A DNA stretch of 24,776 nucleotides from a virus. Positions 92 to 18,600 of this stretch are shown piece by piece. The notes beneath the pieces were generated by a model. That model was not told where the DNA came from. It did not search any database and worked only from the letters and a program-made list of their open reading frames with translations. Numbering within the stretch: the stretch's first letter is position 1; every line of letters begins with the position of its first letter. Position numbers and translations under genes: made by a program. The stretch is from positions 1 to 24,776 of the IMG/VR virus record IMGVR_UViG_3300024255_000151. One strand, 5' to 3'.

Positions 92-891
92 AGTATTTCA
101 ATCCCTTCATTAAATCCAAAGTCATCTCCACTTGTTAATAGCGCATCGTCTGCTGAATTGATGACACCATCAGCATTTTTATCTTCCAATGCTCTGGGAG
201 TATATGTAACTTTTGTAGTTCTCTGTGGAACAGAAGCATTGATGCCTTCGTATACAATTGCTTTCTTGATAACACTTGCCTGATCGAAAGGACCATAGAT
301 ATAAGATTTGGCAGTAAATGTTAGAGACCAAGTAATGTATCTACGCTCAAGAAAACTATCATCCCACGCATCATCATGATTAACTCCATTTAAAATGATA
401 GAAACATCACGTTTCTCATTCATTTCTGGAATCATGTTGAGCGTGATATTAAACGCTGGTTGGAAGTAGGGAAGAATTTGCTCAAGAATTTGTAGTCCAT
501 CATCCTGAGATTTAGCGATGATACCAAGTTCAAACTCAATGTTATATGGTACAGGAACGTACTGCTCCTTTATCTCAGTGCCATCGTCTTGAACAATAGT
601 TCTATACTTTTGAATGGGGGATGTTTTGCGTTGAGCATCATATCCAATACCAGTCATCTCAAAATATAGACGTGGCAATGTGATAGCAACTTTACGATCT
701 ACATCTGGATTTTGTTCCAAACGTGTCAGAAACTTTGCCCTAGGACCATATGCCAAAGGAACTTTCTCTTCCTCAAGCACAGTAGTTCCATCGCTAGGAT
801 CTACTTTCTTCAAAGTAATGTTGTTGAATAAGGTTCCAAACCCAACAATGTTTTTACGAATAATTTCGTTATAAAAATGTGACCCGAACAT
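88..891 (-). CDS. 15: gp15-like tail sheath stabilizer / tail completion protein
   Basis: The 267-aa product matches T4 gp15, the hexameric terminator that caps the tail tube and sheath and joins the tail to the head-neck complex. It begins MFGSHFYN, like T4 gp15 (MFGYFYN). It carries the conserved EQILPYFQP at residues 137-145 and RRYITWSLTF at 183-192, where T4 has RRRIEWSLTF. Length is close to T4 gp15 (about 270 aa). The C-terminus (about 240-267) is acidic and poorly conserved. The start overlaps the gp14 stop by one base (TAATG), and its stop overlaps the next start as ATGA, so it sits inside a translationally coupled late operon 13-14-15-16. No transmembrane or signal segment is seen. 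Confidence 0.93.
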   Translation of the reverse strand: MFGSHFYNEIIRKNIVGFGTLFNNITLKKVDPSDGTTVLEEEKVPLAYGPRAKFLTRLEQNPDVDRKVAITLPRLYFEMTGIGYDAQRKTSPIQKYRTIVQDDGTEIKEQYVPVPYNIEFELGIIAKSQDDGLQILEQILPYFQPAFNITLNMIPEMNEKRDVSIILNGVNHDDAWDDSFLERRYITWSLTFTAKSYIYGPFDQASVIKKAIVYEGINASVPQRTTKVTYTPRALEDKNADGVINSADDALLTSGDDFGFNEGIEIL

Positions 892-1775
892 TAGATACTA
901 CCTGTAAAATTACCTGCTTCACCGAATGGGTTGCCCTCAGTCCAATCCACAATGTTGTCAGCGGCATTTTCGATCTGTCTATTTTGATCGTACTCGCTGT
1001 TGGTATTATTTAGAGTGTCAAATGTACCAACTACATGAACAGCACCGCTGTCATTCCCAGTCATAGCTTCACCAGTAGCAAATGTACCAGTTCTGTTGAT
1101 GACTTGTAAAACTCTTGTGCCAGCATCCCAAGATTTTACTTCTGCTTCTGTGCCTGTAGTTGATCCTGTAATTGCTTCACCGATGGTAAAGTCTCCAGTA
1201 CCACCGACTGCCATAGTGAGAGCAATAGAATTACTAAACAGAGTCTCCATTACATCGATCTCTGCAACTCCTGTAGAGATGTTATCACTACCATACTCGT
1301 AGATTTCTGCAGTCATTGTATAGTAGTAGATCTTACCCAACTGATAGAAGGGGTCTTCTCTCTCAACAAACTTGATCTCATAAAGATCTTTAGTTAGTGG
1401 GAAGTAAAGTAGATCTCCCTCATTGGGTCTACCATCAACAGTTAATGTAGGATTATGCTCGGTAACCTCTGCATCCCAACGTCTTTGAGATACTGAGAAT
1501 TTTACTTCGTCCGAAATTCTAAGACCAAACTTACTGATGAACTCAGATGGAGATCCAAATCCTTCAACATTTTGAAGCATCATTTCAATCTGAAATTGTT
1601 CCGTGTACTTATTGTAGATGATATCATCTAGAGTATTATCTCTAAGAATAGTTCTAGGCATGTAGTAGATATCCGTGCCGAACAATTTAATTTGTTCGTC
1701 CACAAGATCTTGCAGCAATCCCTGTTCGCCAGAGGTGCCGCCGTAATAAGTTGGAAAATAAGGACTAGTAGGCAT
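891..1775 (-). CDS. 14: gp14-like neck protein with an inserted repeat domain
   Basis: The 294-aa product resembles T4 gp14, which forms the neck with gp13 at the portal vertex and helps connect head and tail. Conserved parts are DIYYMPR (35-41), IEMMLQNVEGF (63-73) and SKFGLRISDEVKFS (81-94), followed by a beta-rich segment with YYTMTAEIYEYG (151-162). Residues about 184-256 look like an inserted domain: two similar halves, FTIGEAITGSTTGTEAEV and FATGEAMTGNDSGAVHVV, separated by about 36 residues. The ordinary gp14 C-terminal tail (NIVDWTEGNPFG) then resumes. It starts one base after the gp13 stop and overlaps gp15 by one base. The duplicated G-E-x-x-T-G half-motif also occurs in other marine phage virion proteins. 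Confidence 0.9.
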   Translation of the reverse strand: MPTSPYFPTYYGGTSGEQGLLQDLVDEQIKLFGTDIYYMPRTILRDNTLDDIIYNKYTEQFQIEMMLQNVEGFGSPSEFISKFGLRISDEVKFSVSQRRWDAEVTEHNPTLTVDGRPNEGDLLYFPLTKDLYEIKFVEREDPFYQLGKIYYYTMTAEIYEYGSDNISTGVAEIDVMETLFSNSIALTMAVGGTGDFTIGEAITGSTTGTEAEVKSWDAGTRVLQVINRTGTFATGEAMTGNDSGAVHVVGTFDTLNNTNSEYDQNRQIENAADNIVDWTEGNPFGEAGNFTGSI

Positions 1776-1776
1776 C

Positions 1777-2607
1777 TTATCCGATCATATCCATTGGTGG
1801 AAGGGAATAATCTGTCATCATTCTAGACTCTAATTCTTTCACTTCGCGATTTCCATCTTCCCAGATCTGGCGACCATTAAGGTTAATACCACCAGGAAGT
1901 GAAACGTTGTTGTACTTGATTAGATTCTGACCCCACTGCCTCTTCATCAAAGCAGTAGCATACTTCTTGACAAAACTATCGTTAAAAACCTGACCAAAAG
2001 TTGATGGGTCTAGATAGCGATAACAATCAATAACAAGGTATTGATCTTCTACCACTCTAGATTTATCAATATCAAGATACAAACGATCTTGTCTTTTATT
2101 AAATCTGTATTGAACTAGACCACCAGTATTGATAACCATATCGATGGTTTCAAAATGCTGTTTGATCATATAGTAGTTGGTTAGATCAAAATTGCCAAAA
2201 CTAAATGCAGAACCTGAAGAGAAAGAAAACAGATCCATTAGATAGTATTGATTACTCATACCAAAAAGATTGTTCCTCATAAAATTTGAGGAAACACCAA
2301 ATACTTTTTCAATGCCAAGCACAAGTTCAGGAACTTCTATGTAGTTGCTCCTGTTTTCCCATGCAGACCCGTCAACAGATGTAGATGAAACATCAGTTTC
2401 ATTGAAACGAGTTACCTCAGCTGCAGTAAATTTGTGCTTGAGGTACATCTTTTCAACACCATCAAAATGGTATTCATGATAATACTGAAGTGCTTCATCG
2501 ATGATGTCATCCTTCTGGGTGGCATCCATATTGATCTGCAGAACAGGCGCACCCAACTGACGTTCACAATAGTCAATTAATTCTTGTTTGGTTGTTGGTG
2601 TAGCCAT
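1777..2607 (-). CDS. 13: gp13-like neck protein
   Basis: The 276-aa product matches T4 gp13, the head-completion/neck protein that binds the portal vertex after DNA packaging. The N-terminus has the typical ELIDYCERQLGAPVLQIN (9-26) and HEYHFDGVEKMYLK (44-57). The C-terminus has QWGQNLIKYNNVSLPGG (about 224-240), LNGRQI and the terminal PPMDMIG; T4 gp13 ends in a very similar way. It is the first gene after a strong intrinsic terminator (2620-2653), so it probably has its own late promoter; the best candidate is the CTAAATA in the terminator loop, 29 bases upstream of the ATG. A short AGGT precedes the ATG. gp14 follows after a one-base gap. Confidence 0.93.
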   Translation of the reverse strand: MATPTTKQELIDYCERQLGAPVLQINMDATQKDDIIDEALQYYHEYHFDGVEKMYLKHKFTAAEVTRFNETDVSSTSVDGSAWENRSNYIEVPELVLGIEKVFGVSSNFMRNNLFGMSNQYYLMDLFSFSSGSAFSFGNFDLTNYYMIKQHFETIDMVINTGGLVQYRFNKRQDRLYLDIDKSRVVEDQYLVIDCYRYLDPSTFGQVFNDSFVKKYATALMKRQWGQNLIKYNNVSLPGGINLNGRQIWEDGNREVKELESRMMTDYSLPPMDMIG

Positions 2608-2658: not shown

Positions 2659-2856
2659 TTATTCTGATTCTTGTTCTGCTAGTGATCCAGTAGGTTCTTC
2701 TTCTGGTGGATTGAGAAGATCTAGGGTTTCAATACCCCCAAGTAATTTCAATTTATATTCTTTTGCTTTTACAAGATTTGCTTCCAGATCTCTAATTTGT
2801 TTATCGGTTTTAGAAATTTGTTCGTCAAAATTCTTTCTCAGTTCTGTTGTATCCAT
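2659..2856 (-). CDS. Small coiled-coil protein, unknown function
   Basis: A 65-aa hydrophilic protein that I do not recognise. Residues about 5-42 form a heptad-like amphipathic helix (LRKNFDEQI, KQIRDLEANLVKAKEYKLKLL), followed by a loop and an acidic tail ending EQESE. It has no membrane segment and no Cys. An exact NATAAATA-type late promoter sits 31 bases upstream of the ATG and an intrinsic terminator lies 6 bases after the stop. It therefore appears to be a single-gene late transcription unit between the oxygenase and gp13. Small coiled-coil proteins beside neck genes could act as assembly or scaffolding helpers, but this is inference from position only. Confidence 0.75.
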   Translation of the reverse strand: MDTTELRKNFDEQISKTDKQIRDLEANLVKAKEYKLKLLGGIETLDLLNPPEEEPTGSLAEQESE

Positions 2857-2859
2857 TGG

Positions 2860-2887
2860 TTGATATAGAATAATAATGTGCTATAAT
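2860..2887 (+). promoter_or_regulatory. Sigma-70-type extended -10 promoter for the oxygenase gene
   Basis: TTGATA (2860-2865) and TATAAT (2882-2887) are separated by 16 bases, and TGC precedes the -10 as an extended element (TGCTATAAT). The predicted start is about 2894, only about 17 bases before the GTG. It is the strongest host-type promoter I noticed in the window, and it shares base 2887 with the divergent late promoter. Confidence 0.8.
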
Positions 2888-2894
2888 ATTTATG
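2887..2894 (-). promoter_or_regulatory. Late promoter (CATAAATA) for the 65-aa gene
   Basis: The complement of 2887-2894 reads CATAAATA, a full match to the T4-like cyanophage late motif NATAAATA (7/8 to T4 TATAAATA). It lies 31 bases upstream of the ATG at 2856 and abuts the opposing sigma-70 -10 element. Confidence 0.7.
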
Positions 2895-2910: not shown

Positions 2911-3531
2911 GTGAATGTATACCCCCTGTTCCCTAGTGTAGTTGGTGCATCAGTTCTTGATTCAAGAGTTGACAAATACCATGATGTCTTAAAGTCTGAA
3001 GAGTTTACATCAGATTCAAGAAGATATGCTGCTCCAGATAGTAATCCAAGCATATCAAGAAAAGTTTTAGACAAACATCTAGAACTAAAAAATATTATAC
3101 TGCAAGAGTTCAAAAAATTCAAGAATGAAACTTTAAAACTCTCGACTACTGACTTTAAAATTACAACATCTTGGATGACAGAAACAACTCCTGGAGGATA
3201 TTGTCATTATCACAACCACAAAAATTGTTATTATAGTGGTGTGATGTATCTTGACAATCACGAATCTGGAGATTTAGTTTTTAAAAATGTACTAACAAAT
3301 CTTCATAGTATATGTGTTAATCCTGCAGATGAGTGGACTCAAGAAACATATCAAACATTTTATATCCGCCCACAAAAAAACCTTGTAGTATTTTTCCCGA
3401 GTTATATAGAGCATAAGATTGATCTCTATACAGGAAAACCTACAAGGTATTCTTTAGCATTTAACTTTCATCCAACTGGAAAATTTGGAGAAGCAGATAG
3501 TTATATTGAAATGGATGTATCTAAGAAATGA
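2911..3531 (+). CDS. 2-oxoglutarate/Fe(II)-dependent oxygenase (2OG-FeII_Oxy_5 / TIGR02466-like)
   Basis: A 206-aa protein with the double-stranded beta-helix signature of this oxygenase family. The N-terminal VYPLFPSVVGA resembles the usual L-F-P-x-x-V-G start. The metal-site candidates are H99/H101/H103 (CHYHNHKN) followed by YYSGVMYL, the distal H168 in FFPSYIEH, and R179 in RYSLAFNF, the expected 2-oxoglutarate carboxylate ligand 11 residues later. The GTG start is chosen because an in-frame TAA lies three codons upstream and the family N-terminus begins here; no Shine-Dalgarno is visible. It is the only plus-strand gene and has its own host-type promoter. Its stop overlaps the 3' end of the opposing adhesin gene by 11 bases. 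Such oxygenases are common in cyanomyoviruses; the substrate is unknown (protein, nucleic acid or small molecule). Confidence 0.82.
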   Translation: MNVYPLFPSVVGASVLDSRVDKYHDVLKSEEFTSDSRRYAAPDSNPSISRKVLDKHLELKNIILQEFKKFKNETLKLSTTDFKITTSWMTETTPGGYCHYHNHKNCYYSGVMYLDNHESGDLVFKNVLTNLHSICVNPADEWTQETYQTFYIRPQKNLVVFFPSYIEHKIDLYTGKPTRYSLAFNFHPTGKFGEADSYIEMDVSKK

Positions 3532-4696
3532 ATGTAACTATGACGTATCCTTGTCCAGTATTATATTGATTTAAATTGTCAACTGATCCTGTATATGCAG
3601 TGTGTGGTTCAGAACCACCAGGCGACCACGATCCATTAGATGTTCCGTAGTTAGATCCACTATCAGCAAGGAAGGATCCACCTCCACCACCACCTGGGTC
3701 ACCGCTACCAGACGCACCGCCACCTGAGTAACCGCCGCCTGCGCCACCACCCTCAGCATCATTTCCGTTGAAGGACTCACCGCCTCCACCGCCATGACCA
3801 CCAGAGTTAGTTGTCAGCGAGGTGCCATCTGCCTGACCACCTTTACCACCAGAAGTAGCTGCAGCACCACCGCCAGCACTAGAACCACCAGAAGCACCAG
3901 CAGTTAGGAATCCTCCGCCAGCACCAGGACCGCCGTCTGCGTTATTAACAGTTCCTCCATTTCCGTTTTGTCCACGATAATTCCCTCCACCAGAATTTGG
4001 TTCAGTTCCCTCAGTACCTGATGCGTTTCCATCATCACCAGCAGATTGAGAAATTGTTCCGTAGTAAACGTCGCCGTTTCCACCGCCACCACCTGCTACA
4101 ATTAGTGGTTCGCCAGTAATAGCAGACCAAACGAAGGATCCACCTCCGCCTCCACCACCTTCACCAGAAGTGTTTGGTTTGACGCCTGCAATAATATTGT
4201 AAACTTCTCCTTCTTCTAGTTGCCATTCCCCACGCATCACTGCACCACGACCAGCAGTTCTTCCAGCGTTGTTGGCGATAGCGTTACCTTCTCCGCCTTT
4301 TGCTCCAGCAACTAAGAACCTATAAACTCCAGATTTAGGAACTGTCCAAGACTGAACTCCACTACTATCAACGTTATAGTACAACGTATTAGTATTCCAG
4401 AGACCAACACCTTGCCCCGCCATAGTGCTTCTTGCTTGAGAGATTGTTGGTCCCTCGGCACCAGTTCTACCACCATTATTAAAGGTTACATTAATAAAGT
4501 CATATAGACCAGCACCACCAGCGAGTCCAATCCAATCAGATCCATCCCAAACCTGGAGACCAGAATCATCGCCATCATTCAAATAAATTAAAGTTCCAGT
4601 AACTACGCCACTTAAAGAATTCCTCTGTGCCACAGAGTACTGAGGAATAGATAGTTGGGTATTTACTTGTAGTTTATCTACGATTAATTGTGACAT
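3521..4696 (-). CDS. Glycine-rich tail protein, putative receptor-binding adhesin
   Basis: 391 aa in three parts. The N-terminus (1-60) ends in a short virion module, GTLIYLNDGDDSGLQVW then WIGL. A linker with NNGGRTGAEGPTISQAR (73-89) follows. From about residue 115 there is a domain opening WTVPKSGVYRFLVAGAKGG, then Gly-rich runs at 179-187, 202-206, 236-239, 302-306, 317-327 and 335-340, and a closing beta strand GYVIVTFIS. This pattern matches the glycine-rich domain type of ALK/LTK receptors, and is reminiscent of the polyglycine-II adhesins (gp38) at long-tail-fibre tips of some T4-like phages. It lies four bases after the 59-aa gene, next to the giant fibre gene, so a role at the fibre tip is plausible. 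Cognate receptor unknown. Confidence 0.7.
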   Translation of the reverse strand: MSQLIVDKLQVNTQLSIPQYSVAQRNSLSGVVTGTLIYLNDGDDSGLQVWDGSDWIGLAGGAGLYDFINVTFNNGGRTGAEGPTISQARSTMAGQGVGLWNTNTLYYNVDSSGVQSWTVPKSGVYRFLVAGAKGGEGNAIANNAGRTAGRGAVMRGEWQLEEGEVYNIIAGVKPNTSGEGGGGGGGSFVWSAITGEPLIVAGGGGGNGDVYYGTISQSAGDDGNASGTEGTEPNSGGGNYRGQNGNGGTVNNADGGPGAGGGFLTAGASGGSSAGGGAAATSGGKGGQADGTSLTTNSGGHGGGGGESFNGNDAEGGGAGGGYSGGGASGSGDPGGGGGGSFLADSGSNYGTSNGSWSPGGSEPHTAYTGSVDNLNQYNTGQGYVIVTFIS

Positions 4697-4700
4697 ATTT

Positions 4701-4880
4701 TTAGACCCACTTCCCGTCGTTAGTGTATAGTTTTACTTGTCGTCTGTCGGTAATAAACATAATTTCCCCAGCAACTGGTGCAGGGAGAGAATTATTTCTG
4801 GCGATAACAGACTCATATACAGGCAAAACTGCATATGATCCTGGATTTACTGTACCGACAGTTAGTTTTCTTTCCGCCAT
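4701..4880 (-). CDS. 59-aa virion-associated mini-protein
   Basis: An ATG on the complement at 4880 opens 59 codons and closes with TAA at 4701-4703. The protein starts MAERKLTVGTVNPGSYAVLP and ends MFITDRRQVKLYTNDGKWV. The ending resembles the RYNT-type module (short hairpin, then W) found twice in the 1506-aa protein and once at the N-terminus of the 391-aa protein. A perfect late promoter (4902-4909) lies 22 bases upstream, and the next gene starts four bases after the stop, so it heads a two-gene late unit with the adhesin. It may be a fibre connector or adhesin helper; that is inference. It is easily missed because it is under 60 codons. Confidence 0.8.
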   Translation of the reverse strand: MAERKLTVGTVNPGSYAVLPVYESVIARNNSLPAPVAGEIMFITDRRQVKLYTNDGKWV

Positions 4881-4901: not shown

Positions 4902-4909
4902 TATTTATA
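4902..4909 (-). promoter_or_regulatory. Perfect late promoter TATAAATA
   Basis: The complement of 4902-4909 is TATAAATA, identical to the T4 late consensus. It spans the TAA stop (4905-4907) of the 3381-aa gene and sits 22 bases upstream of the 59-aa ATG. It probably drives the 59-aa and 391-aa genes separately from the giant gene. Confidence 0.82.
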
Positions 4910-7900
4910 CCAATAACCAAGTTCCATTAGTAGCGATGGTGACTACAGCATTATTATCAATTACGATGTCTCCGACACTATAAGCAGTAACGTTAGTAGG
5001 AATTGTTACTGACTCGGCAATATTGGTTCTTTGAACCTTGATGATTCCATAAGAATCAACCCATTGTCTTTGACCATTAGCATATAGAGTTGCGTCAACC
5101 TGTCCATTAGTTTTAGTAGTTCCTTCAATCTGTACATCACCAGCAATTTGCAATGTATATGATGGATCTGCTATATTAATGCCAACTTTAGAGAGTCTGT
5201 AAATATTGGCACCACTCGCATCAGAAGATTCAGTCCATCTAGAAGTAACAAACTCTTCATTATTTTGATATAGAATACCATTGATATTCATATCACCACC
5301 AACGTTCAACTTATACTCTCTATCAATAATATTCTGAGGATCTGATTGATCCTGACCACCAAAGTCTAGAGTGTTGATTGCAACTTGGTTATCAGATCCC
5401 TTGATTGCAAATGCAGGGGTAGACTTAAATCCTGGAGAAGAACCAGCACCATCTTGAGGTGTGATTTCAAAAACATCACCTGCCAGAATGTTGTTACCCA
5501 TTCTGAAGTTGCTTAGAATTTCGCCTGGAGTTCCAGAAGAAGAACCTGTTGCGCCGTTAAAGAAGATAGGAGCATCATCGTTATTCGCAGTAGTTCCTAG
5601 ATAGAGACCATCAACACCTCTCAAGAACTGGTTAGTATAGATGTCTCCATCAATAACTTCTAGTTTATAACTATTTGGTGCAATGGTTCCGATTCCAACG
5701 TGACCATTTGCGTCTACGCGGAATCTCTCCGAGAGAGTATTGGATGTTTCACCAGTTCCTTTGGAAGTATAAACAACGAATGCAGAAGAACCTTCCAGAG
5801 TAGTGCTATCAGCATTAGCATTTTCGCCAACTTCAGCACCAATCTTGACGTGTGGTTTTCCGTTGTTGTTGGAATCACGGAACTCAAACTCAATGAAAGT
5901 CTTTTGCATACTCAGATCACTGACCTTTTGAGTCAGACGCTGCATTGTCAAACCTTCATTGCCTGAACTAGAGTTCTCCTGGAAAACATCTAGTTGATAT
6001 GTTGGTGATGCATCACCAAGACCAATTCTCTTCGTATCTTTGTCAACGAAGAATACATCAGTATCAACTGCAAGATCTTCAGCAATAGTAACGTTGCTTA
6101 AGAAGTCTGCTCTACCAGATGTGCTTAGTGCCTGATTTGCTGCAGTGATACCACTGATAATCAAAGCACCAGACATTGTGTCGCCTGCCTTGAGAACGTT
6201 CAAGGAAGCAGCACCAGTCAGTGCAGCAGTGATTGTTCCTGCTTCAAAGTTGCCAGAAGCATCGCGAATAACACCAGTGCTTGCAACATTAGAAGAGTTG
6301 AATGTAATGTTACCAGCATTCCAAACTTTGTTACCATTAAGTGTTAACTGATCTGCGTCAGCAACTTTTACTTCCAAACCGCCAGATCCATCAGTGTTGT
6401 TGCCACCAGTTGCAATAAGTGCAACGTTGTAGTTAGTTGCAGCAACTACAGAAGATCTAAAATAGATTGAAGGATCAGAAGCAATGACACCATCTGCTCT
6501 ACCGATTTTTAGTCTTGCATTACCACCAGAACTTTCTGCAGTGATAACCTCGAATGTTCCATCAACTAGACCATCGCTGTTATCATCAAGTACTGCGACA
6601 CTATAATCTTGGAATGCAAATGCGTTTGCAACACCACCTTTACCAATAAAGTATGCATCTTGTACTCCATTGGAATCAGTAAAGTCACCAGAAATTAGAG
6701 TACCAGTGAGCATTGTGTAGTTGTTTGCAGCATCATTAACATCCTGAATTGGTTCAACTTTCGTTAGAGAAAGTTCGCCAACACCATTACCACCATTGTC
6801 GTATAGATTTACTGATAAACCAGCAAGGAATGGTGCAGCAGTTCCAAGAAGTTCATCGCGGACAAGAACCTTAAATCTTGGATTACCAAGCCAATCAACA
6901 ACACGCAATTGCGAAAGAACATCTTTCTGTGTTTGTAAGAATGGTAGTCTCTCATCAGAAAGAATGCCATAGTTCATATGAGTAGCAGTCTGATACCACT
7001 TACCTTGGCGACCATCCATCTTGTCAGCATCTAGTCCGCTGAGTTCGCCATCATTTCCAGAACTCCAAATCTTATTCCAACCACCAAATTGGTTTGCGGG
7101 ACTAGTAAACGAACCACGCAACCACATGTTACCGCCATTAGAAGCAGTACCATCAGTGAATGCTAATTGCCTTACACCACCAAAAGTAGCGTCAAAGTCA
7201 GAACCACCATTTCTGATAGTCATTACTAAGTGACGTGTGCCACCATCAAATAGACCATCAGCAGAGTTGTTCTTAGTATCAGAAATGATACCAGCAGAGA
7301 ATTCGTTTGGATCTGGATTACCAACAGGGGTTCCAGTAGAAGTTTTTAGTCTTAGTGTGTTACCAGATTGGTTTGCAATACTGATATTATATGTACCAGA
7401 TAGTCTATCAACAGGTACAACACCTGCGCTCAAGTTACCTGCATTTGTATAGAACGTACCTTGTGCTCCATCCAGAGTATCAGCGTCAAGACCAGAGTTT
7501 GGACCAGTGTTAATGTCGATAGAACCATTACCACTTTCACCAATGATAAACTGAGATTTTTTAAATCTAGCAACACCTAGTGTTCCATATGCATCACCAG
7601 AAGTTGTTAGATTTGATACTCTATCGATATCAACAGCAACGTTTGCATATTGTCTTAGAACTGTCGTTACTTTTGCAAGTAAAATTAGACCAGATCCAGC
7701 ACCAATTTCTGATGGAGTAGACGAAACAATAAAGTCAACATTCTGCTGATTAGTATTTTGACCATATCCAGAACCGCCATTAACAATAGTAACATCGGTA
7801 ACAACACCAGCAGTTGTAATAATGTTTACTCTCAGATCTGTACCATTACCACCTGATAATGGAACGTTAAAGAATGGACCTGCATCGAAATTAGATCCAC

Positions 7901-10900
7901 CATTTTGGATAACAATTTGATCAACAAATCCACCTTGAGTCTGAGAAGATTCAAAGGTTAGAGGAGAAGCACCTCTATCAAATTCGATTACTGTATCAGC
8001 AGGTAGAGTTGCAGTTAAGAACTTATCGATAGTAACTGTAGTCTCTCCACTTTCAGTAAGAACACCACTAATGTTTGTGTCTGTCTGAATACCTGTAATT
8101 GGTTTAATTGCATGACCTAACAGGAAGTTAGAACTACCTTCAAAAATTAGTGTGGAAGCACCACTATTAGCTTGTGTTTTGATTTTAGCAAAGTATCTAG
8201 TTTCAGGACCTTTGACTGTTTGTACTGCAGGTGCATATGCTTGGTCACCTCTCAAGAAAGTAAAGGAGTTTGCAGCACTAACTGCTCCTTGTGCATTAGT
8301 TGCTAAACGTGCTGTTGAGATAACACCAGATGTAATCTGGTTTGCTGCAATCTGATCAGCTGATAGTGATACCCAGTTGTTAGTATCACTTGCAGATGTA
8401 TTAACAACGCGAGTGATATTGATTGTTTCTGGTGGAAGATCACTAGATTGAATATTGTCAGTATCTATAATCTTGATATTGTTAACAATATCGCCATACA
8501 ATCTACTTTCAATTAATGTATTTGCAGATGCTTGAGTACCAGAACCCGCTGGTGGAGCAATTGTAATTGTTGGGGGAGTGGTGTAACCTTTACCACCAAC
8601 AAAACCATTGAATAGTACAATCTCAATGATAACAACTTGACCATTAGCAATTGTACATTCTGCGCTCGCTGAAACTGCACCTGCTTGTGGGTTGCCACCA
8701 GAGAATGTGACAACAGGAGGAGTAATATATCCAGAACCACCATCAGTAATGAGTATCTGATAAACAACACCTTGTCTATATTCGGTTGCTTGAAGTTTAC
8801 CACCAGTGGTTGAACCAGTATAAATGTCACTTAGAGTAAACTGGAGTGTCGTATCAACAGGGAATGATGCAAACAAACTATCGTTATCATTATTCAAAAT
8901 GAACGATATACTTAGATCCTGTTGAATTGCGATATCACCAGCAAGTGCTCCTTCAATAGCAATTCTTTCAGGTTGATTTGCAACTGTGTAAACCTGGAAA
9001 GGACGCAGCGGTGGAATCTGATCTTCTGAAATCTTACCAGAATCAGTAAGTTCTACTAGTGCTCTAGGAACTGGGTTCGTAGAGTATGGTTTGTTGATGT
9101 ATGGACCGAGGTTGTTAGTAATAAAGTCTTTAACTGCTTTCTGTGTAGGCAGTTTAGAGTCAGTTGAGTTGGCACCACCAAGTGTATTGCTGTTATCGAA
9201 ACCAGTAACAACAACGTCGCCACCTTTCAGTTTCAAGAACTCAACTTCCGAGATGGTTACAGTACCTGTGAAGGTGATGTTACCAGTTCTGTTTTCAATT
9301 CTAGCAAATGTACCAACTTTAAAATCACCTAGTTCGTCAGTACCAGAAACATATGTTCTACCATAATTTTCAGAAACTTGTTCATTTGCTTCAACTTTAG
9401 TTCCACCATTCTCTGGGAGAGCAAGGTAGCTAGTTCCCGAACCAGCATATTCCCAAGTGTGGGAAGAAGAGTTAACAATAGATGGTCTGTGTAGTCTGAG
9501 TGTTTGTCCTACTAGACCTGCAAGAGAGATAGGACTATTCGTTGAAGAATCCTTGATCTCCATCGGACCACCAGATCCAGAATCAAATGTAAGTTGAGCA
9601 GAGAAAGGAGGACCAACAGTTACTCCTTCTACTTCATCAACAAAGTATTCAATGTCTGGATTAATATTTTCAAATCCATCAATTTTTCCGACATAATGCT
9701 CTAGGGGTTCTCTTCCAAGACCACTAACTGCTAAAATTGTTCTTCCAGTTGGAGTTGAAGATACATTATTAATAGTACCAACGTCAAAAGTGTATGCTTC
9801 TCTTCGGAAACCAGTTGATCTAAGTGCAAAAATACCAAAGTTGGTAGCAGAGTTAGTAATAGATGCATAACCACCAGTATCTGCTAGAACACCATCTGCA
9901 CAGAAAATACAGAATACAGAAACTAATTGTACATAACCATCTTCGATAATCTGATAACCAATACCACCTTCAGAAACAATCGTGAAGGCAGATGCAACCA
10001 TCGACTTACCCTGGTTAGGGAACTTCGCGGCTCCGTCAACTGTCAAACCAGGGAATGGGCAGTTAGGTTTCTTGACTTTAGAACCATCAATTAGAGCACC
10101 ATTACCACCTAGTTTGGAAATAATAGAAGCATTCTGTGTATATGGTGATGCCTCAATAATTGGATTATCATCATAAGTTGCTCTAACGGTAATTTTAGTT
10201 CCGTTTAGATCACTAATAATGCTATCTGCATATGTGTATAGATTAGCTACATCTAGTAAAGTTCCTGTTGTTTGTGCAGTAGCTCCTTTAAGAATTGTTC
10301 CTCCTAAAATCTGATCAAGAATTAAGAACTGAGCAGTTATAGCAGATTCAACACCTGCACATAGTGGATCTCCATTTGGATCTGCAAGGATAGTATTGTC
10401 CGTGAAAGCGGGAATTATGCTATATGGAGGTACTACAGCATTTCCAGAAGAATCTTTCCAGTTACGCATTGCCGAGATCAAAAGATCTCTTACTTCAGTA
10501 AATGCATATCTAGTTGCTCCAAGTTCGTTTGTAGGAACTCCTGTTAGTTCTGTTCCTGTGAAGTAAGATTCTGCTGCATTGACAATACCAAAGTTTCCAC
10601 CTAGAACAAGATCTCTAATAACAGCATCAATAATATAATTGATATCTCTACGACACTTGCGCTCATCAATGTTATTAAGACCAAGAGAAGGATATTGAAC
10701 AATTGCTGATCTATATGCAGAGTCTGCAACTAGATGTCTGTTTCTAGCAATTAGGTAAGCGCCATCTAGAACTGTACCGCTTGCATTATTTGCTAGAACA
10801 TCATTAAACAAATATGCAAGAGTATCAATTGCAGATTTTACATTATTACATGCACCACTAGGATCCAGATCATTAATAACAGTATCATCAAAGTATCTCG

Positions 10901-13900
10901 GTACACTAGAATATACTGGTGTATAGACAGGTTGAGAAATAGAACCATCTCCAGTTCTCCACTTTCTCATTGCATAAACCATCAACTCGCGAGTATATTC
11001 AAACGCACGTACTGTTTGAATTATCTCAGTATTTACAAAATCAATTTGAGTATTAGTTCCATCAATATATTTTTTAGCAGCATCGATCACATTATTGTTG
11101 CTGCCAAATTCCAAGTCTGCGGTGATAGCATTAATGAAGTGTTTAACGTCTCTACGGCACTTCTCGTCACTTACAGGGATACTGAAACTTGGATAGGTCT
11201 TCTGTGTAACTACGTTATCTACAGTACACTCTAGGAGGATATCTGCGACTAAGACTGTACCATCTTCAACTAGGTTAGCAATTGGGGTGTCAATAGTAAT
11301 TGTTGCTTCACCCCTAACAATATTATCATAGACAAAATTTGTAACATTTGCTGTTTGTCCATCATATGTTATTGTACCACCAGAGACATATGTATGTACA
11401 AATCTGGATGGTCCGAGAAAAATTTTAAATTCAGAACCACCAACAATCAAAGAGTTTGCCGCTGCTCTTACAAAAGTATGAACAGATTGTGGTAGGTGCT
11501 TAACAGAATTGCTTGTAGCACCTTGGAAAGAGTGAGAAGACTGAGGTAGATGCTGTACAGCGTTTGCAGTTGCACTGATAAAGGTATGTACAGAACCAGA
11601 AGCACTTCCACCATTACCAACATTGATTGTAACGTTGCCAGTCAATCTCTTGACAGAATTAGGGTCAGCACTTACAAAAGTATGATCTCCAGTGTAAGAA
11701 GAAGCACCAATGTTTACCTCAAAAGTATTTGTAGTTGTATTAGAGATTTCTAACCAGCGACCAGATGGATAGTCATACCCAGCACGAGGATAAGACTTAG
11801 TAGCAACATTGCCATCTAGAACACATGTATATTCTAAAGAATCATCATCGATTTTAATGTAATCGCCATCGGAAAATCCATGACCATTGATCTCAAAAAC
11901 AACAATTCCAGTTGCAGCATCATAGTCTGCATCAGATGGTGTGTGGAATGTCTGACTTACAGCAGTGATGGGAATAGACTTACCTGCATAAGGATCTTGT
12001 CCTGGACGTGGATAAGTTTTTGGTGCTACGTTACCATCTTGATCGCATGTAAATGTGAATGAGTTATCTGCAAGAACAACACTTCTACCAACACCTAGAC
12101 CATGCTGAGGTCCGAGGTTCATTACTAAATCACCCGTTGCAGCATCATAAGTTGTGCCACTCAGTGGTTGGAACGTTCTATTAGGAGCAGATACACCGAC
12201 ATTCAGGGTAATTGTTCCTGCTACTTTGTCAACGTCAACGATAGGAATAGAACGACCTGCATAAGGATCAATACCAGGACGAGGATATGTTTTGACTGAA
12301 TCATTATTATCCATGTCACAAGTAAACGACATGGAGTTGTCATCTAGGACAATACCTTCGCCTATATCTAGTGTATGAGGACCAATGTCAAGAACCAGTT
12401 CTCCACTAGAAGGACTATAAGTTGCTCCACTTGGAGTGAACTGCTGATTAGGTCCAGAAGCACCTACGTTAATATCAAATGTATTAGTAGTTACGTTTTG
12501 AATAGGTAGAGTTTTGCCATATGCAAAGTGATGTGACTGAGGTGCAGCATGCTCAGTCTTATCTCCATCCATTCCACAGGTAAAGACGATAGAATCATCA
12601 GCAATTCTTACGCCGTCGTTATTAGATAGACCATGCCCATTAACTGTAAATGTAGCGATGCCTGATGCAGGATCGTAGACTACATTAGTGGGAGTAAATA
12701 ATTGATCAGGTGTTCCACTGATGTCGTATGGGAAGAAGTATTCCTGTTTGAACTGATCATTTACTTTAGAAACTACTTCATCAGCAATGAAGTCTCTGTT
12801 GTTTCTGATCTGGTTTACAGCATCCTGGAATCTTCTAGCAACAATAGTTGCTTCCGAGAATTTGTTAGGAGAGTTGAGCAGAGATAAAGTTACAGACTTA
12901 GAGTAGTTTGTTACCTGTGCAAACTGACCAGGATCATAGTTATCATTCGTTAGAGAAGGTGCTTTCTTAGGAATGACAAAACGTCTAGATCTACCATCAG
13001 GATCTTCGATGACTTTGTAGATTCTTTGCTTACCCATCAAGAATGATAGGTCAGGAGCACTGGTAGACAGACCAGAGATTTCGATCTCTTGACCTTCTTT
13101 GAAGTCGTGGATGTTGTCTGCTTCTACTAGTGGGTTTGTGTAGAATACGATACCACCAAGATCTTCTTGAACACCATAGTCTCCAAATCCACCAGTTGCT
13201 ACTTCGGCAGTTCCTTGCTTGGCAAAGTCAATACGAGAAATAGGCAGAACTTTAATAGTATCTCTATCCTCAAATACAACCTCACCCTCAGCTCTAATTG
13301 ATAGAATATCAGTTGTGACAAGAGAGTATGTATCTCTTATGTAAGTAAACTCTAGGGTGTCTGGTCCATTAGCTGCTGTACCAGTATCGTGAGTTGGGTT
13401 TGTTGGTCCAGATGTACCAGCAACACTTACGTTATACAGGTTATCTTCTGTCCAAACTTGATCACCTATATCATATGCAGTGTCTGGTGCGAATCTTTTG
13501 GTGCCAGCACCAGCAAATACTAGAGTTTCACCAGCGTCTACTGAACCAGATACTTTTTCAAAATCAAACTTACCATTAATAAATGCACTAGGACCAGTTG
13601 TTAAACTAAAATCAACGTTTCTAGATTTAACAATACCACCAGCGTTAACACCTCTAAATTCTTGGTTTGCAGTTAGAGCACTCAAACCTCCATTAGATTG
13701 GAATGTCGCTCTAAACAGATCTTCGCCAAAGATCTGGTGACCAATTGGGAACGTAGTATCAAAATTTCCATTTACATCATAATCATATGTAATTCTTTGC
13801 TTGTCATCAAAGACCATCGCAAAGTCCCAAGTTGCGACTGAGAAACCATCCGAGTCAATTTGGTCACGATAAGTAACGCCGATAACATAGTTCTTGTCAC

Positions 13901-15050
13901 CGAACTTGAAGATATGCTTTCTTGGGTTAGCAGGACGAATGATAACCAGACGTAGGTTGTCACCAACGATAGATGCATCTGGTGGGATGGAAATCGGGTT
14001 GTCTTCTACATAGTCACCACCAGAAATAATGATTGATTCTTTGATGCCAACAGTTTCCCATGCCAACTGACATGCTTTCTTGATGGTTCTGACAGGAGCA
14101 ACTGCAGAACGACCATCATTCTCGTCGTTACCAATCAACTGCGAAACATAAATACGACCACCAACGTCATTCGTTGCTAGGTTGAGGACGTATTCAGTAG
14201 TTGCAATTTTGTCAGACTTATCACCTAGGATTGGAGTGATAGATCTTGGATAAATGCCCGACTCACCAGTTTTGTTGTAGTATACTTCGTTCTCGTCAGA
14301 TACACGGAAACCAACGTGCTTGAACTCAATAGTTCCATTAGTCTCGATTCCATCAATATGAAGAGGAGGATCGAGAGGATCTATAGAAGTTGTACCAGCA
14401 CCTAGAGACTGATATACATTAGGACCACGGAAGACAAATGTATTTTTTTGATACAAAGTGTCTGGTGCCCAAGGAGTACCAGTATTATTGATAAAAGTTT
14501 TAAGATTTGGTGCTCTATATTGAGCATCTGGAGTAACTAGGTTATCGATATCCAGGTTTAGAATTCGCGCCGTATCAGAAATGATAGACGTGGAAGTTCT
14601 AATAGCGCCGTTAATGTCAAGTTCAAAATCAACAGTATCAAGGAACGAGGTTGCAGTCGCTCCAACACCATCACCACCAGTGATACTTACCCCTGGTGCA
14701 GAAGTATACCCTTCTCCAGGAGAATCAATAATAACAGATACAACTCTACCTTCAGAAACAACAGCAGATGCTAATGCCTGAACACCACCTTCAGTTTGCG
14801 GTGCTCCTAAAAGAACAGTCGGTTGAGTGGTATACCCACCACCTTGGTTATCAACCCTAATGACATCAATTCTACTTCCAGTTCTATTGATACCAACGCG
14901 AGGAAGTTTACTAACAGGATCTAATTGAGTCCTAAGAATTTCTATTTCATTAGAACCCGTTCCGCCCCTGATCGTTAGTTGGTTGTCCCCGATAAAAGCA
15001 GGCGAGATCGCCCTAAATTGTTCCCTATCAGAATTTAACTTAAAGCTCAT
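4905..15050 (-). CDS. Giant modular tail-fibre-like virion protein (3381 aa)
   Basis: Modules by approximate residue: G-x-G-Y beta repeats (70-125); CBM5/12-like segment (187-249); parallel beta-helix-like region with GNDENDGRS and VRTIKKA (296-400); second CBM-like segment (517-572); four Cys/Asp tandem repeats (785-1118); His-Thr/Ser-Phe repeats (1118-1224); two CRRD helical repeats (1295-1371, 1461-1536); a fibre motif KLPTQKAVKDFI (about 1964); further G-x-G-Y units (2090-2440); two GLDAD-DG-Q fibre repeats (2517-2700); and a C-terminal series of V-G-I-G/N-x-x-x-P strands (3000-3300). There is no peptidase S74 chaperone at the end. It is most likely a long fibre or whisker reaching the cell surface. 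The ATG follows the 169-aa gene by 47 bases, and the stop codon lies inside a late promoter. No membrane or signal segment is evident. Confidence 0.85.
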   Translation of the reverse strand: MSFKLNSDREQFRAISPAFIGDNQLTIRGGTGSNEIEILRTQLDPVSKLPRVGINRTGSRIDVIRVDNQGGGYTTQPTVLLGAPQTEGGVQALASAVVSEGRVVSVIIDSPGEGYTSAPGVSITGGDGVGATATSFLDTVDFELDINGAIRTSTSIISDTARILNLDIDNLVTPDAQYRAPNLKTFINNTGTPWAPDTLYQKNTFVFRGPNVYQSLGAGTTSIDPLDPPLHIDGIETNGTIEFKHVGFRVSDENEVYYNKTGESGIYPRSITPILGDKSDKIATTEYVLNLATNDVGGRIYVSQLIGNDENDGRSAVAPVRTIKKACQLAWETVGIKESIIISGGDYVEDNPISIPPDASIVGDNLRLVIIRPANPRKHIFKFGDKNYVIGVTYRDQIDSDGFSVATWDFAMVFDDKQRITYDYDVNGNFDTTFPIGHQIFGEDLFRATFQSNGGLSALTANQEFRGVNAGGIVKSRNVDFSLTTGPSAFINGKFDFEKVSGSVDAGETLVFAGAGTKRFAPDTAYDIGDQVWTEDNLYNVSVAGTSGPTNPTHDTGTAANGPDTLEFTYIRDTYSLVTTDILSIRAEGEVVFEDRDTIKVLPISRIDFAKQGTAEVATGGFGDYGVQEDLGGIVFYTNPLVEADNIHDFKEGQEIEISGLSTSAPDLSFLMGKQRIYKVIEDPDGRSRRFVIPKKAPSLTNDNYDPGQFAQVTNYSKSVTLSLLNSPNKFSEATIVARRFQDAVNQIRNNRDFIADEVVSKVNDQFKQEYFFPYDISGTPDQLFTPTNVVYDPASGIATFTVNGHGLSNNDGVRIADDSIVFTCGMDGDKTEHAAPQSHHFAYGKTLPIQNVTTNTFDINVGASGPNQQFTPSGATYSPSSGELVLDIGPHTLDIGEGIVLDDNSMSFTCDMDNNDSVKTYPRPGIDPYAGRSIPIVDVDKVAGTITLNVGVSAPNRTFQPLSGTTYDAATGDLVMNLGPQHGLGVGRSVVLADNSFTFTCDQDGNVAPKTYPRPGQDPYAGKSIPITAVSQTFHTPSDADYDAATGIVVFEINGHGFSDGDYIKIDDDSLEYTCVLDGNVATKSYPRAGYDYPSGRWLEISNTTTNTFEVNIGASSYTGDHTFVSADPNSVKRLTGNVTINVGNGGSASGSVHTFISATANAVQHLPQSSHSFQGATSNSVKHLPQSVHTFVRAAANSLIVGGSEFKIFLGPSRFVHTYVSGGTITYDGQTANVTNFVYDNIVRGEATITIDTPIANLVEDGTVLVADILLECTVDNVVTQKTYPSFSIPVSDEKCRRDVKHFINAITADLEFGSNNNVIDAAKKYIDGTNTQIDFVNTEIIQTVRAFEYTRELMVYAMRKWRTGDGSISQPVYTPVYSSVPRYFDDTVINDLDPSGACNNVKSAIDTLAYLFNDVLANNASGTVLDGAYLIARNRHLVADSAYRSAIVQYPSLGLNNIDERKCRRDINYIIDAVIRDLVLGGNFGIVNAAESYFTGTELTGVPTNELGATRYAFTEVRDLLISAMRNWKDSSGNAVVPPYSIIPAFTDNTILADPNGDPLCAGVESAITAQFLILDQILGGTILKGATAQTTGTLLDVANLYTYADSIISDLNGTKITVRATYDDNPIIEASPYTQNASIISKLGGNGALIDGSKVKKPNCPFPGLTVDGAAKFPNQGKSMVASAFTIVSEGGIGYQIIEDGYVQLVSVFCIFCADGVLADTGGYASITNSATNFGIFALRSTGFRREAYTFDVGTINNVSSTPTGRTILAVSGLGREPLEHYVGKIDGFENINPDIEYFVDEVEGVTVGPPFSAQLTFDSGSGGPMEIKDSSTNSPISLAGLVGQTLRLHRPSIVNSSSHTWEYAGSGTSYLALPENGGTKVEANEQVSENYGRTYVSGTDELGDFKVGTFARIENRTGNITFTGTVTISEVEFLKLKGGDVVVTGFDNSNTLGGANSTDSKLPTQKAVKDFITNNLGPYINKPYSTNPVPRALVELTDSGKISEDQIPPLRPFQVYTVANQPERIAIEGALAGDIAIQQDLSISFILNNDNDSLFASFPVDTTLQFTLSDIYTGSTTGGKLQATEYRQGVVYQILITDGGSGYITPPVVTFSGGNPQAGAVSASAECTIANGQVVIIEIVLFNGFVGGKGYTTPPTITIAPPAGSGTQASANTLIESRLYGDIVNNIKIIDTDNIQSSDLPPETINITRVVNTSASDTNNWVSLSADQIAANQITSGVISTARLATNAQGAVSAANSFTFLRGDQAYAPAVQTVKGPETRYFAKIKTQANSGASTLIFEGSSNFLLGHAIKPITGIQTDTNISGVLTESGETTVTIDKFLTATLPADTVIEFDRGASPLTFESSQTQGGFVDQIVIQNGGSNFDAGPFFNVPLSGGNGTDLRVNIITTAGVVTDVTIVNGGSGYGQNTNQQNVDFIVSSTPSEIGAGSGLILLAKVTTVLRQYANVAVDIDRVSNLTTSGDAYGTLGVARFKKSQFIIGESGNGSIDINTGPNSGLDADTLDGAQGTFYTNAGNLSAGVVPVDRLSGTYNISIANQSGNTLRLKTSTGTPVGNPDPNEFSAGIISDTKNNSADGLFDGGTRHLVMTIRNGGSDFDATFGGVRQLAFTDGTASNGGNMWLRGSFTSPANQFGGWNKIWSSGNDGELSGLDADKMDGRQGKWYQTATHMNYGILSDERLPFLQTQKDVLSQLRVVDWLGNPRFKVLVRDELLGTAAPFLAGLSVNLYDNGGNGVGELSLTKVEPIQDVNDAANNYTMLTGTLISGDFTDSNGVQDAYFIGKGGVANAFAFQDYSVAVLDDNSDGLVDGTFEVITAESSGGNARLKIGRADGVIASDPSIYFRSSVVAATNYNVALIATGGNNTDGSGGLEVKVADADQLTLNGNKVWNAGNITFNSSNVASTGVIRDASGNFEAGTITAALTGAASLNVLKAGDTMSGALIISGITAANQALSTSGRADFLSNVTIAEDLAVDTDVFFVDKDTKRIGLGDASPTYQLDVFQENSSSGNEGLTMQRLTQKVSDLSMQKTFIEFEFRDSNNNGKPHVKIGAEVGENANADSTTLEGSSAFVVYTSKGTGETSNTLSERFRVDANGHVGIGTIAPNSYKLEVIDGDIYTNQFLRGVDGLYLGTTANNDDAPIFFNGATGSSSGTPGEILSNFRMGNNILAGDVFEITPQDGAGSSPGFKSTPAFAIKGSDNQVAINTLDFGGQDQSDPQNIIDREYKLNVGGDMNINGILYQNNEEFVTSRWTESSDASGANIYRLSKVGINIADPSYTLQIAGDVQIEGTTKTNGQVDATLYANGQRQWVDSYGIIKVQRTNIAESVTIPTNVTAYSVGDIVIDNNAVVTIATNGTWLLV
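10445..10668 (-). repeat. CRRD helical repeat, copy 2 (protein level)
   Basis: Encodes ERKCRRDINYIIDAVIRDL, a GGN turn, an A-A-E-S-Y-F-x-G segment, and LLISAMRNW about 70 residues on. It aligns with copy 1 through KCRRD, two short helices and the closing A-M-R-x-W. Confidence 0.8.
10940..11166 (-). repeat. CRRD helical repeat, copy 1 (protein level)
   Basis: Encodes EKCRRDVKHFINAITADL, a GSNN turn, AAKKYIDG and MVYAMRKW. The same order occurs again at 10445-10668. Motifs of the form C-x-R-D-x-x-x-x-x-D-A recur in large marine phage structural proteins. Confidence 0.8.
11380..11698 (-). repeat. His-Thr/Ser-Phe short repeats in the giant fibre
   Basis: Four short units follow one another in translation: HTFVSADPNSVKRL, HTFISATANAVQHL, HSFQGATSNSVKHL and HTFVRAAANSL, with a degenerate HTYVSGG after them. 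The last three full units are 19 to 20 residues apart. Each pairs a beta-like HTF with a polar N-S/A-V turn. Confidence 0.8.
11699..12698 (-). repeat. Four tandem Cys/Asp repeats in the giant fibre
   Basis: About 80 residues per unit. Each unit has a Y-x-x-x-[ST]-G-x-[ALV] opening, an N-G-H-G or G-P-x-x-L turn, a D-[DN]-[ND]-S strand, then [FY]-T-C-x-x-D and, in units 2-4, a YPR-x-G stretch. It closes with a P-I or E-I strand and N-[IV]-G-[AV]-S. A fifth partial unit (ECTVDNVVTQKTYPS) follows near 11200. Confidence 0.85.
13335..13500 (-). other. CBM5/12-like module in the 3381-aa protein
   Basis: Encodes FAPDTAYDIGDQVWTEDNLY, then GTSGPTNPTHDTGTAANG and LEFTYI. A more diverged copy, WAPDTLYQKNTFVFRGPNVY, lies at 14305-14490. 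The spacing of Y-x-x-G-D-x-V-x, x-x-L-Y and P-T-H-x-x-G is as in CBM5/12. Confidence 0.55.
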
Positions 15051-15609: not shown

Positions 15610-18600
15610 TTATTTCTTAGTGATTTGGGATACTACAGTAATGTTGACATTATTTCCAACAGAAATGCTGGAATTCAAAATGAATGTCAAACGACATTCA
15701 TTGAACGCATTGAAGTCAAACTCGGTTAGTACCTGCTGACCATTTGTTCTCATATTCGCAATTTCTGTGTGGAATATATCTGTACCTTTTGCGAACACTG
15801 TATATTTAACTAGTTCTTTATCGCCTGTTGTTGTATTGTGTGCAATAAGTTGGACATCTGCACATTCATCTGTCGAAGGATCAAACAAAACTGCTTCATT
15901 CTGGTTGATAGATCCTCTAGTTAGAGCAACTTTAGTAGTAGAAACTTTTACATGTGCAAGTTCAAAATTTTGTAACGTATCGTCAAGGAGTTTGATACCT
16001 GTGAATGTTGATGTTCCGAATCCTAAATTAAAAGTAACCTCTCCAACATCAGACAATCTGATCAAAGGATCTACTGTTAATCCAGTTGATAAACCAATAT
16101 CAAAGAATTGCTTAGAACAATGTAAAAATGAACTATCCGAAGCAGTATTGTCTAGAGTAGTTTCGTTAGTGTTAAAAGTAAGAAGTGAAACATTAACTGC
16201 CAAAGAATCTGTGTCGGTAGATTTAATGCTATCAACTAAATCAAATTCTAAGTCATTAGCAGTCAGTCTGAGTGCTTCGTTATTAGCAGTGATAAAGAAC
16301 AAAATATCTTCATCAGTACCAGGACCAACCTCTGCTTTAATTAGAGTATCCTGATCAATATCTTTTACTCCACCAAGACCACCCCACTGAATTCCATTGT
16401 ATCCTTCAAACTGAGAATCGTCAGTATTGTATCTAATAGAACCTTGTTCTGGACTCCCTTTTTCGTTATTACTACCTACAGGAATTACCAGAGAAGTTGG
16501 TGCTACAATTTTTACTTTCTTTCCGCTAGAAGGTTCAATTTGAAGATCATTTGTTGTTGTAAGGATATTATTGTTAGACAGGCGAATCTCATTATTAACA
16601 ACTAAATCTGTAAATCCTAGAGGATCAACACGTAGTTCGGAGATCTCTTCAAATGTTAGGGAAGATACTGCACTGATATACCATTCCAGTTGTGCTGTTC
16701 CATTTGGTTGTGTACCAGTTGTGTGAGTTGGTTCACTACCACTAGTAGCAGTAGTACCACCACCACCGACAGGAACAACGTAAATGTTATTTCTATACTT
16801 GAGGTATTCTCCTTCAACTACAGGAACGTTTGCTCTCCACTCATCATAATCAGGTGCTGCGGTATTAGGAGATCTTACTTTCTTGACGTTAACAAACTCT
16901 TGATATTCTGGAGTGAATCTAACTGTATTAATATTGTCGTTAATGAACCACAGAGTATTGTCATTAGAACCAATAGTTTCTTCTGCAAGAATTGTGGTAT
17001 TACCATCTAGGTCTCTAATACCACCAAGAGAAGACCACGAAGTTGTGGAAGCATTATATCCTTCATATTGGTTTGTCTCAGTATTGTATCTGATAGAACC
17101 ATTATAAGATACATTGGGAAGAGGTCTTTGTGAAATATCACCTGCAGGAATAACCAGTGCAGTTGTTCCAATAATTTTAGTTTGATTTGCAGATGCAGGT
17201 TCAAAGACGAGATCTTCGCCAGGAACTGTACTAATTACATTATTAGTAATCTCTAGTTTGTCGCTAGAGTTAAAATTGCCAGTTGTCTTAATGGCACCAG
17301 AACTAGTAATATTACCAGTTGTATTTTCAATTTGAATTGAAGATCCAATATTGACATTACCATAAGAGAAGTTTGTAGAAACTCCTGCATTCATTTCAAT
17401 GATGTCATCGCCATCAGCATCAGATTGAATCATACCAACAACATGAGTGTCGGTAGTTTTAGATGTTGTACTCGTAAGATCAGTAATCGTACCAGAACCA
17501 AATGATAGAGTAGTACCCTGAGAACCTATTGATGTAATCTGACCAGTTTCAACATCTAGAGAAATTACATCTGTACTACCAATTGCATTTACTTGGATAG
17601 TTCCGCCAGTACCAAATACTTTAGGATTGTTTGCATTATAAGTTAGAAGTCCCTCCAAATTATCACTACCACCCATATTTGGGTGTACGGTACAATAGTA
17701 GTATAAATTTGGTGTGGTTGAAGTGACCTTTAGAGTCAGATCATTTGCAGTTCTAACTACGTTATCTGTAAATTCTGTTCCAATAAAATCAAGAACAGCA
17801 GAACCAGAACCTGTTGCTGCAGCATCAAGAGTAATCTGTGTTCCACTATCAACGCTAAGAACTTTAGTGCCTGCAGGAATAACAGCATTTCCTGATTGAA
17901 TACTAACTTCCATTCCAGGCAGAATACCTGTGCTGTCGGTTACACCAACTACAGCACTTAAAGAGACATTAGAAGTTATACCTGTTACAAGTCCTCTACC
18001 TGTATCTCCACCTGGAATATCAGATAATGCAAAAATGTGACCAGTATTTGATACATCAGATACATCAAAGACATACTTATTACTAAGGAAAATAGTGAAA
18101 GAATCACCGACTACTCCATCTAGAGCAAATCTATTTACATTTGTAGCAGTATCAATTGAAAAAGCAGTACCTGATCCAATCTGAATAGTTTGTCCAGCAG
18201 CAGCACCAACAGATTCAACAATAACTTCAATAATATTACCGCCCGAAGTTCCTACAGAAAGAACCTGTGCTTGTACAGTACCAGCATCTCCACCGCCAAT
18301 ATCGGCAGTGTCTCCAACAGAGATGGCATTAGAAGGAACAGCAGAAGCAAACGTTAGTACCTCAACGTTAACAGTCGTTACTACTTTAGTGATTGGTTGA
18401 GTTAGGTCTGTTGCTGAAATTGTAACAACGTCAGCGACATCATATCCAGATCCTCCTTCAAGAACATTAACCGCATCGATAGATCCTAAAGTTTCAAGTT
18501 GGAAATTAACTTCTGTAGTTGGACTACCATATGCTGGAGTGAAGTCTAGTACAACTGCACCCGCTAGTGCTGGTTGATCACTAAGAGTCAATATATTTGT

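Follow-up and report, generated by a model that had tools for sequence, protein, structure and literature searches.

What does a cyanophage do with a long glycine-rich protein encoded just downstream of its giant fibre gene? The question arises in a 24.8 kb fragment of a T4-like marine cyanophage from an IMG/VR record (hereinafter the window), which at the DNA level is matched best by Synechococcus phages such as Sf-CH11, S-RIM44 and Syn1. Few receptor-binding proteins of marine T4-like cyanophages have been assigned. A defined slot in which one module carries many heads would make it possible to recognise such proteins in genome sequences and to test them for host range. From profile searches, comparisons of related loci and a structural model, we consider it likely that the protein is a late virion component which sits at the end of a cyanomyovirus fibre as an exchangeable receptor binder and has an ALK/LTK-type head. 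As such, it is a new form of an already known kind of phage adhesin, and we refer to it below as the adhesin.

The locus and its glycine-rich gene

On the minus strand of the window, large structural genes are followed by the giant fibre gene (4905..15050, 3381 aa), the gene for a 59-aa mini-protein (4701..4880), the adhesin gene (3521..4696, 391 aa) and the genes for the phrog_580 protein (2659..2856), the head-tail adaptor gp13 (1777..2607), gp14 and gp15. A convergent plus-strand gene coding for a 206-aa 2OG-Fe(II) oxygenase (2911..3531; PF13759, E 9e-16; phrog_81) separates the adhesin gene from phrog_580, overlapping the former by 11 bases, and is kept in the three closest relatives (L008, L009 and L030). 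The sequence-only reading had taken the adhesin for the last gene of the late unit: this holds for the short unit of promoter, mini-protein and adhesin, but not for the late genes as a whole, as phrog_580 and gp13–gp15 follow on the same strand. Among these downstream genes, gp14 (891–1775, minus strand) differs in length between relatives (885 versus about 1122 bases) and its residues 182–240 match the baseplate wedge family phrog_708 (E 2e-4).

The adhesin ORF is a real gene. At the same site, the three closest relatives code for proteins of conserved length with 93, 86 and 72% identity to it, and the respective dN/dS values of 0.22–0.61 indicate purifying selection. The protein comprises two parts, a module spanning residues 1–60 (4517..4696, as with all its segments on the minus strand) and a TNF-like/glycine-rich domain spanning residues 65–391. 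Within the region occupied by the latter, residues 61–172 (4181..4516) are assigned by the profile, the model and its structural match to the TNF-like part and the opening of the ALK/LTK-type domain, with the motif GVYRFLVAGAKGG at residues 123–135; residues 173–345 (3662..4180) constitute the glycine-rich part; and residues 346–391 (3524..3661) supply the return strands of the TNF-like part, the last of which, at residues 384–389 of the model, corresponds to the closing beta strand anticipated from the sequence. Glycine makes up 27% of the whole protein and 40% of residues 173–345. Runs of four to seven glycines do occur, although there are just four (180–186, 202–206, 302–306 and 335–340) rather than the many first described, along with six GGG triplets; whole-protein shuffles yield 1.45 such runs on average (P 0.05).

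No named phage has a close relative of the adhesin; only its N-terminal 61 aa are matched, in ACG-2014e and ACG-2014i. Direct searches with the adhesin itself against Pfam and NCBIfam returned no match, with Pfam giving none even at an E-value of 10 and the PF12810 gathering score not being reached, which weighs against its interpretation as an adhesin.

The ALK/LTK-type head and the module that bears it

We aligned nine proteins of the adhesin kind from the swap site (see below) with others from unrelated phages, and a profile of residues 62–391 comprising 25 phage sequences was run against the Protein Data Bank. It recovered human ALK (E about 1e-32), LTK (1e-31) and worm SCD-2 (3.5e-16), and beyond these nothing below 0.01. 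It is in the TNF-like part, and not among the glycine runs, that the match starts, and 15 of 26 adhesin relatives match PF12810 (ALK_LTK_GRD) with E-values up to 0.01. An HMM derived from phage relatives outside the swap locus scores the adhesin at 178 bits, as against at most 16 bits for 300 shuffles of it with the glycines held fixed; hence, the resemblance to ALK/LTK goes beyond composition. The Gly_rich_2 proteins and the other glycine-rich proteins of the same locus show no match to this HMM.

The AlphaFold2 model of the adhesin (pLDDT 86.5, pTM 0.81) superimposes on LTK with a Z-score of 31.8 (2.2 Å over 243 residues, 33% identity) and on ALK with 31.5, followed by the worm protein (22.4), the Bxb1 tail tip (8.4), the fibre of the cyanophage Pam3 (8.1 over 139 residues) and TNF family members (near 5). 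Among the matches listed, ALK and LTK are closer to the model than any phage structure. The AlphaFold2 training set is older than the ALK structures (2021), and so this likeness should not be a product of its memory. The predicted shape of the head is nearly that of the ligand-binding part of human ALK and, judged by sequence profile and predicted fold, the head is a homologue of the ALK/LTK TNF-like plus glycine-rich domain. The ALK/LTK-type glycine-rich domain recognized in the sequence-only reading is thus upheld by the phage-only profile, the PF12810 matches of the relatives and the structural match alike.

When compared with the TG domain of ALK/LTK (PF12810; 7nx1, 7mzy, 7lir), both parts have the same order and extent in the adhesin, with about 30–33% identity on structural alignment and Z-scores of about 31. 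In contrast to its animal counterparts, the adhesin is viral, lacks the EGF-like domain, the kinase and the membrane part, is preceded by the 60-aa module and has no known ALKAL-like ligand. Such closeness bears on the origin of the animal domain, which is also present in phages and bacteria. In bacterial genomes we find it mostly in Bacteroidetes and Myxococcota (L130–L174). Phage proteins with an ALK-like fold in BFVD, for example those of S-RIM12 and the Caulobacter phage Ccr34, carry the UniProt name 'receptor protein-tyrosine kinase', which seems to have been given on the strength of the ALK-like domain alone.

Among phage proteins, the fibre gp24 of the myocyanophage Pam3 (7ypx, 7yfw) shares a TNF-like plus glycine-rich head with the adhesin; its likeness to ALK is already published, and it has been proposed to be a receptor-binding fibre (PMC9608196). 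However, the glycine-rich part of gp24 is shorter and the match reaches a Z-score of only 8. Further, the N-terminal domain of gp24 is alpha-helical, whereas that of the adhesin is a beta module, and gp24 is served by a dedicated chaperone (gp25). The neighbour of the adhesin is the mini-protein; an N-terminal alpha-helical trimeric stalk of the gp24 type is absent from the adhesin model. The gp38 adhesins of T4-like phages (e.g., S16 gp38) likewise present a polyglycine-rich tip and are encoded beside the long-fibre gene, but S16 gp38 has, by its description in PMC9608196, different N-terminal and middle domains, and gp38 is not among the fold matches listed for the adhesin model. The analogy proposed to the glycine-rich sandwiches of T4-like phages needs correction: among the matches listed, the closest solved phage structures are the Pam3 fibre and the Bxb1 tail tip.

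Residues 1–60 of the adhesin are homologous to the 59-aa mini-protein (module HMM, E 1e-15, and alignment), which consists of the same module, and, again by HMM, to a stretch inside a 1506-aa structural protein. At the swap site, the module is N-terminal in proteins longer than 200 aa that fall into 14 clusters by C-terminal domain, that of the adhesin and 13 others; among the heads are Gly_rich_2, Laminin_G_3 and one with a fibrinogen-like match below threshold. The module HMM had zero matches to shuffled sequences. The module is predicted to be mostly beta with one short helix (model pLDDT 78), and most of the folds that match it best belong to the N-terminal domains of trimeric phage receptor-binding proteins and to the trimerisation domains of collagen XV/XVIII. 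The small beta folds of the K2-2 tailspike and BPP-1 major tropism determinant N-terminal domains and of collagen XV/XVIII resemble it over 43–48 of 62 residues, but with Z-scores of only 4–5 and no significant sequence match. Comparisons with Mtd_N and Collagen_trimer gave E-values of 0.05–0.11 with one or two members only, nothing significant was found among the sequences of solved structures, and Foldseek returned no E-value below 0.1; these weak fold matches weigh against the interpretation as an adhesin. The module would nevertheless be a probable anchoring and trimerising unit, making the adhesin tip probably trimeric. The 1506-aa structural protein (15610–20130, minus strand) has two internal module copies, at residues 980–1039 and 1201–1256.

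The swap site and its late promoter

The gene sets between the giant fibre gene, which forms the upstream flank, and the conserved downstream flank that begins with phrog_580 and gp13 differ widely among related cyanomyoviruses. Two S-RIM44 isolates show 96.4% identity from the point where phrog_580 begins, yet no similarity of their DNA can be detected across the cassette, and the matching pieces of their fibre gene are 65–70% identical. ACG-2014e keeps the late promoter, a mini-protein and residues 1–61 of the adhesin (57%), while beyond residue 61 nothing significant is found and the head is unrelated. By these sequence comparisons, the site is one at which genes are swapped. At a single site, a common N-terminal module bears different heads, in line with the adhesin-like position and exchangeability supposed at the outset.

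The adhesins of the three closest relatives, at 93, 86 and 72% identity, can be set beside the corresponding gp13 proteins at 99, 91 and 82%. It is mainly in the relative with 72% identity that the glycine-rich loops vary more than the TNF-like opening. The further supposition that the loops are hypervariable found no support when the locus was compared in the closest relatives, there being no region with a clear amino-acid excess. We accordingly rejected hypervariability by point mutation: the dN/dS of 0.61 against the closest relative reflects low dS in the glycine-rich part and not high dN, and positive selection on the loops was seen against none of the three relatives, which again weighs against a receptor-binding role. 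Since the same adhesin is inherited in the closest kin at dN/dS values of 0.2–0.6 while whole cassettes are swapped, its diversity arises mainly by replacement of whole heads rather than through fast-evolving loops. The dS of the glycine-rich part (3662–4180) is about a third of that of gp13 in the three nearest relatives (0.24 versus 0.74 in L009), which could reflect codon limits in glycine runs or recombination.

The mini-protein and adhesin pair is preceded by TATAAATA (4902..4909, minus strand), the sole exact match in the window, which is located 21 bases ahead of where the mini-protein starts and is conserved in the three closest relatives and ACG-2014e. The late promoter of cyanophages reported for S-PM2 is NATAAATA (PMC2984593). 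The motif ATAAATA is present in the 60 bases preceding 27 of the 51 adhesin-type ORFs and 28 of the 35 phrog_580 genes; among enzyme ORFs the figure is 9 of 151, and random stretches have it in 1% of cases. A late-promoter-like CATAAATA (2887..2894, minus strand) precedes phrog_580–gp13. In contrast to the adhesin, the oxygenase has a sigma-70-like promoter (TTGATA-16-TATAAT; 2860..2887, plus strand) that matches at 11 of 12 positions and has a TG before its second hexamer. The mini-protein and adhesin hence read as a late unit with a conserved late promoter, which bears out the late-gene status assigned earlier.

Candidate role at the virion surface and enzymes of the slot

We propose that the adhesin is switched on late together with the mini-protein from the single late promoter. 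The N-terminal module would dock it on the virion, probably at the end of the giant fibre or on the mini-protein, and probably trimerise it, with the TNF-like and glycine-rich head facing outward. Contact with the host surface might then be made by the loops that connect its polyglycine helices, and lineages would change receptor by swapping either the head alone or the entire cassette that lies between the giant fibre gene and phrog_580–gp13. Three proteins of this slot in S-PM2, all with the module, are annotated as virion structural proteins.

The protein could instead be a virion component that binds no receptor, decorating or capping the fibre or the neck, in which case the ALK-like domain would be a rigid spacer. 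Its gene adjoins the neck genes as well as the fibre gene, and ALK-like domains occur in bacterial genomes too; however, at the same site this module also carries lectin-like and other heads, whole cassettes are swapped within a species as expected of recognition proteins, and Pam3 gp24, with the same architecture, has been proposed as a receptor-binding fibre (PMC9608196). We therefore consider such a role improbable. Still less credible is a late product outside the virion, for example a decoy or aggregation factor that is secreted or left on the lysed cell: phages do have free-standing proteins with the head domain and without the N-terminal module, but this module also lies inside the 1506-aa virion structural protein and in the S-PM2 proteins annotated as structural. 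The high glycine content and the lack of a Pfam match to the adhesin itself might even point to a spurious ORF or low-complexity artefact; this, however, is already contradicted by the purifying selection and conserved length in relatives and by the gap between 178 bits and the at most 16 bits of the glycine-fixed shuffles, and we give it virtually no credence. A receptor-binding tip thus remains our preferred interpretation.

The slot also houses enzymes. The cassette of the window has one oxygenase only. Of the 25 cassettes visible from end to end in this group, 17 contain one or more recognised 2OG oxygenases and eight have none, as counted by cluster labels, which rest on the Pfam matches of one representative per cluster. 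Flavin halogenases are found in the slot of relatives (27 proteins, 21 loci) and, with a JmjC protein, sit between or after glycine-rich adhesins in many of them. Loci whose slot is shared with 2OG-Fe(II) oxygenases, one or two flavin halogenases and a JmjC protein are L001, L005, L011–L015, L018, L020–L022, L024, L026, L027, L032, L036, L043, L050, L062, L066 and L123. The same gene set follows fibre and glycine-rich adhesin-like genes in Syn10 (L120, 4418–19177), the source of the VirX1 halogenase, and in syn9 (L127), the Syn10 set being placed by these fibre and adhesin-like neighbours. The Syn10 halogenases are 507 and 530 aa long, while VirX1 is given as 531 aa.

The presence of these enzymes beside glycine-rich adhesins suggests covalent maturation of the tips, whereby the oxygenases, halogenases and JmjC protein might modify them after translation to yield hydroxylated or halogenated adhesins. 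We offer this as a speculation that is rather unlikely to be correct; if true, it would name the natural substrate of viral halogenases. Oxygenases by themselves were rejected as a mark of the swap locus, as they are present at many places in the 12 genomes searched. Syn1 codes for about nine 2OG oxygenases, several of them beside other fibre genes. In two of its loci (L128, 5336–8163, and L129, 4573–5145), 2OG oxygenase genes lie immediately behind the gene for the short tail fibre gp12 and immediately ahead of another fibre gene.
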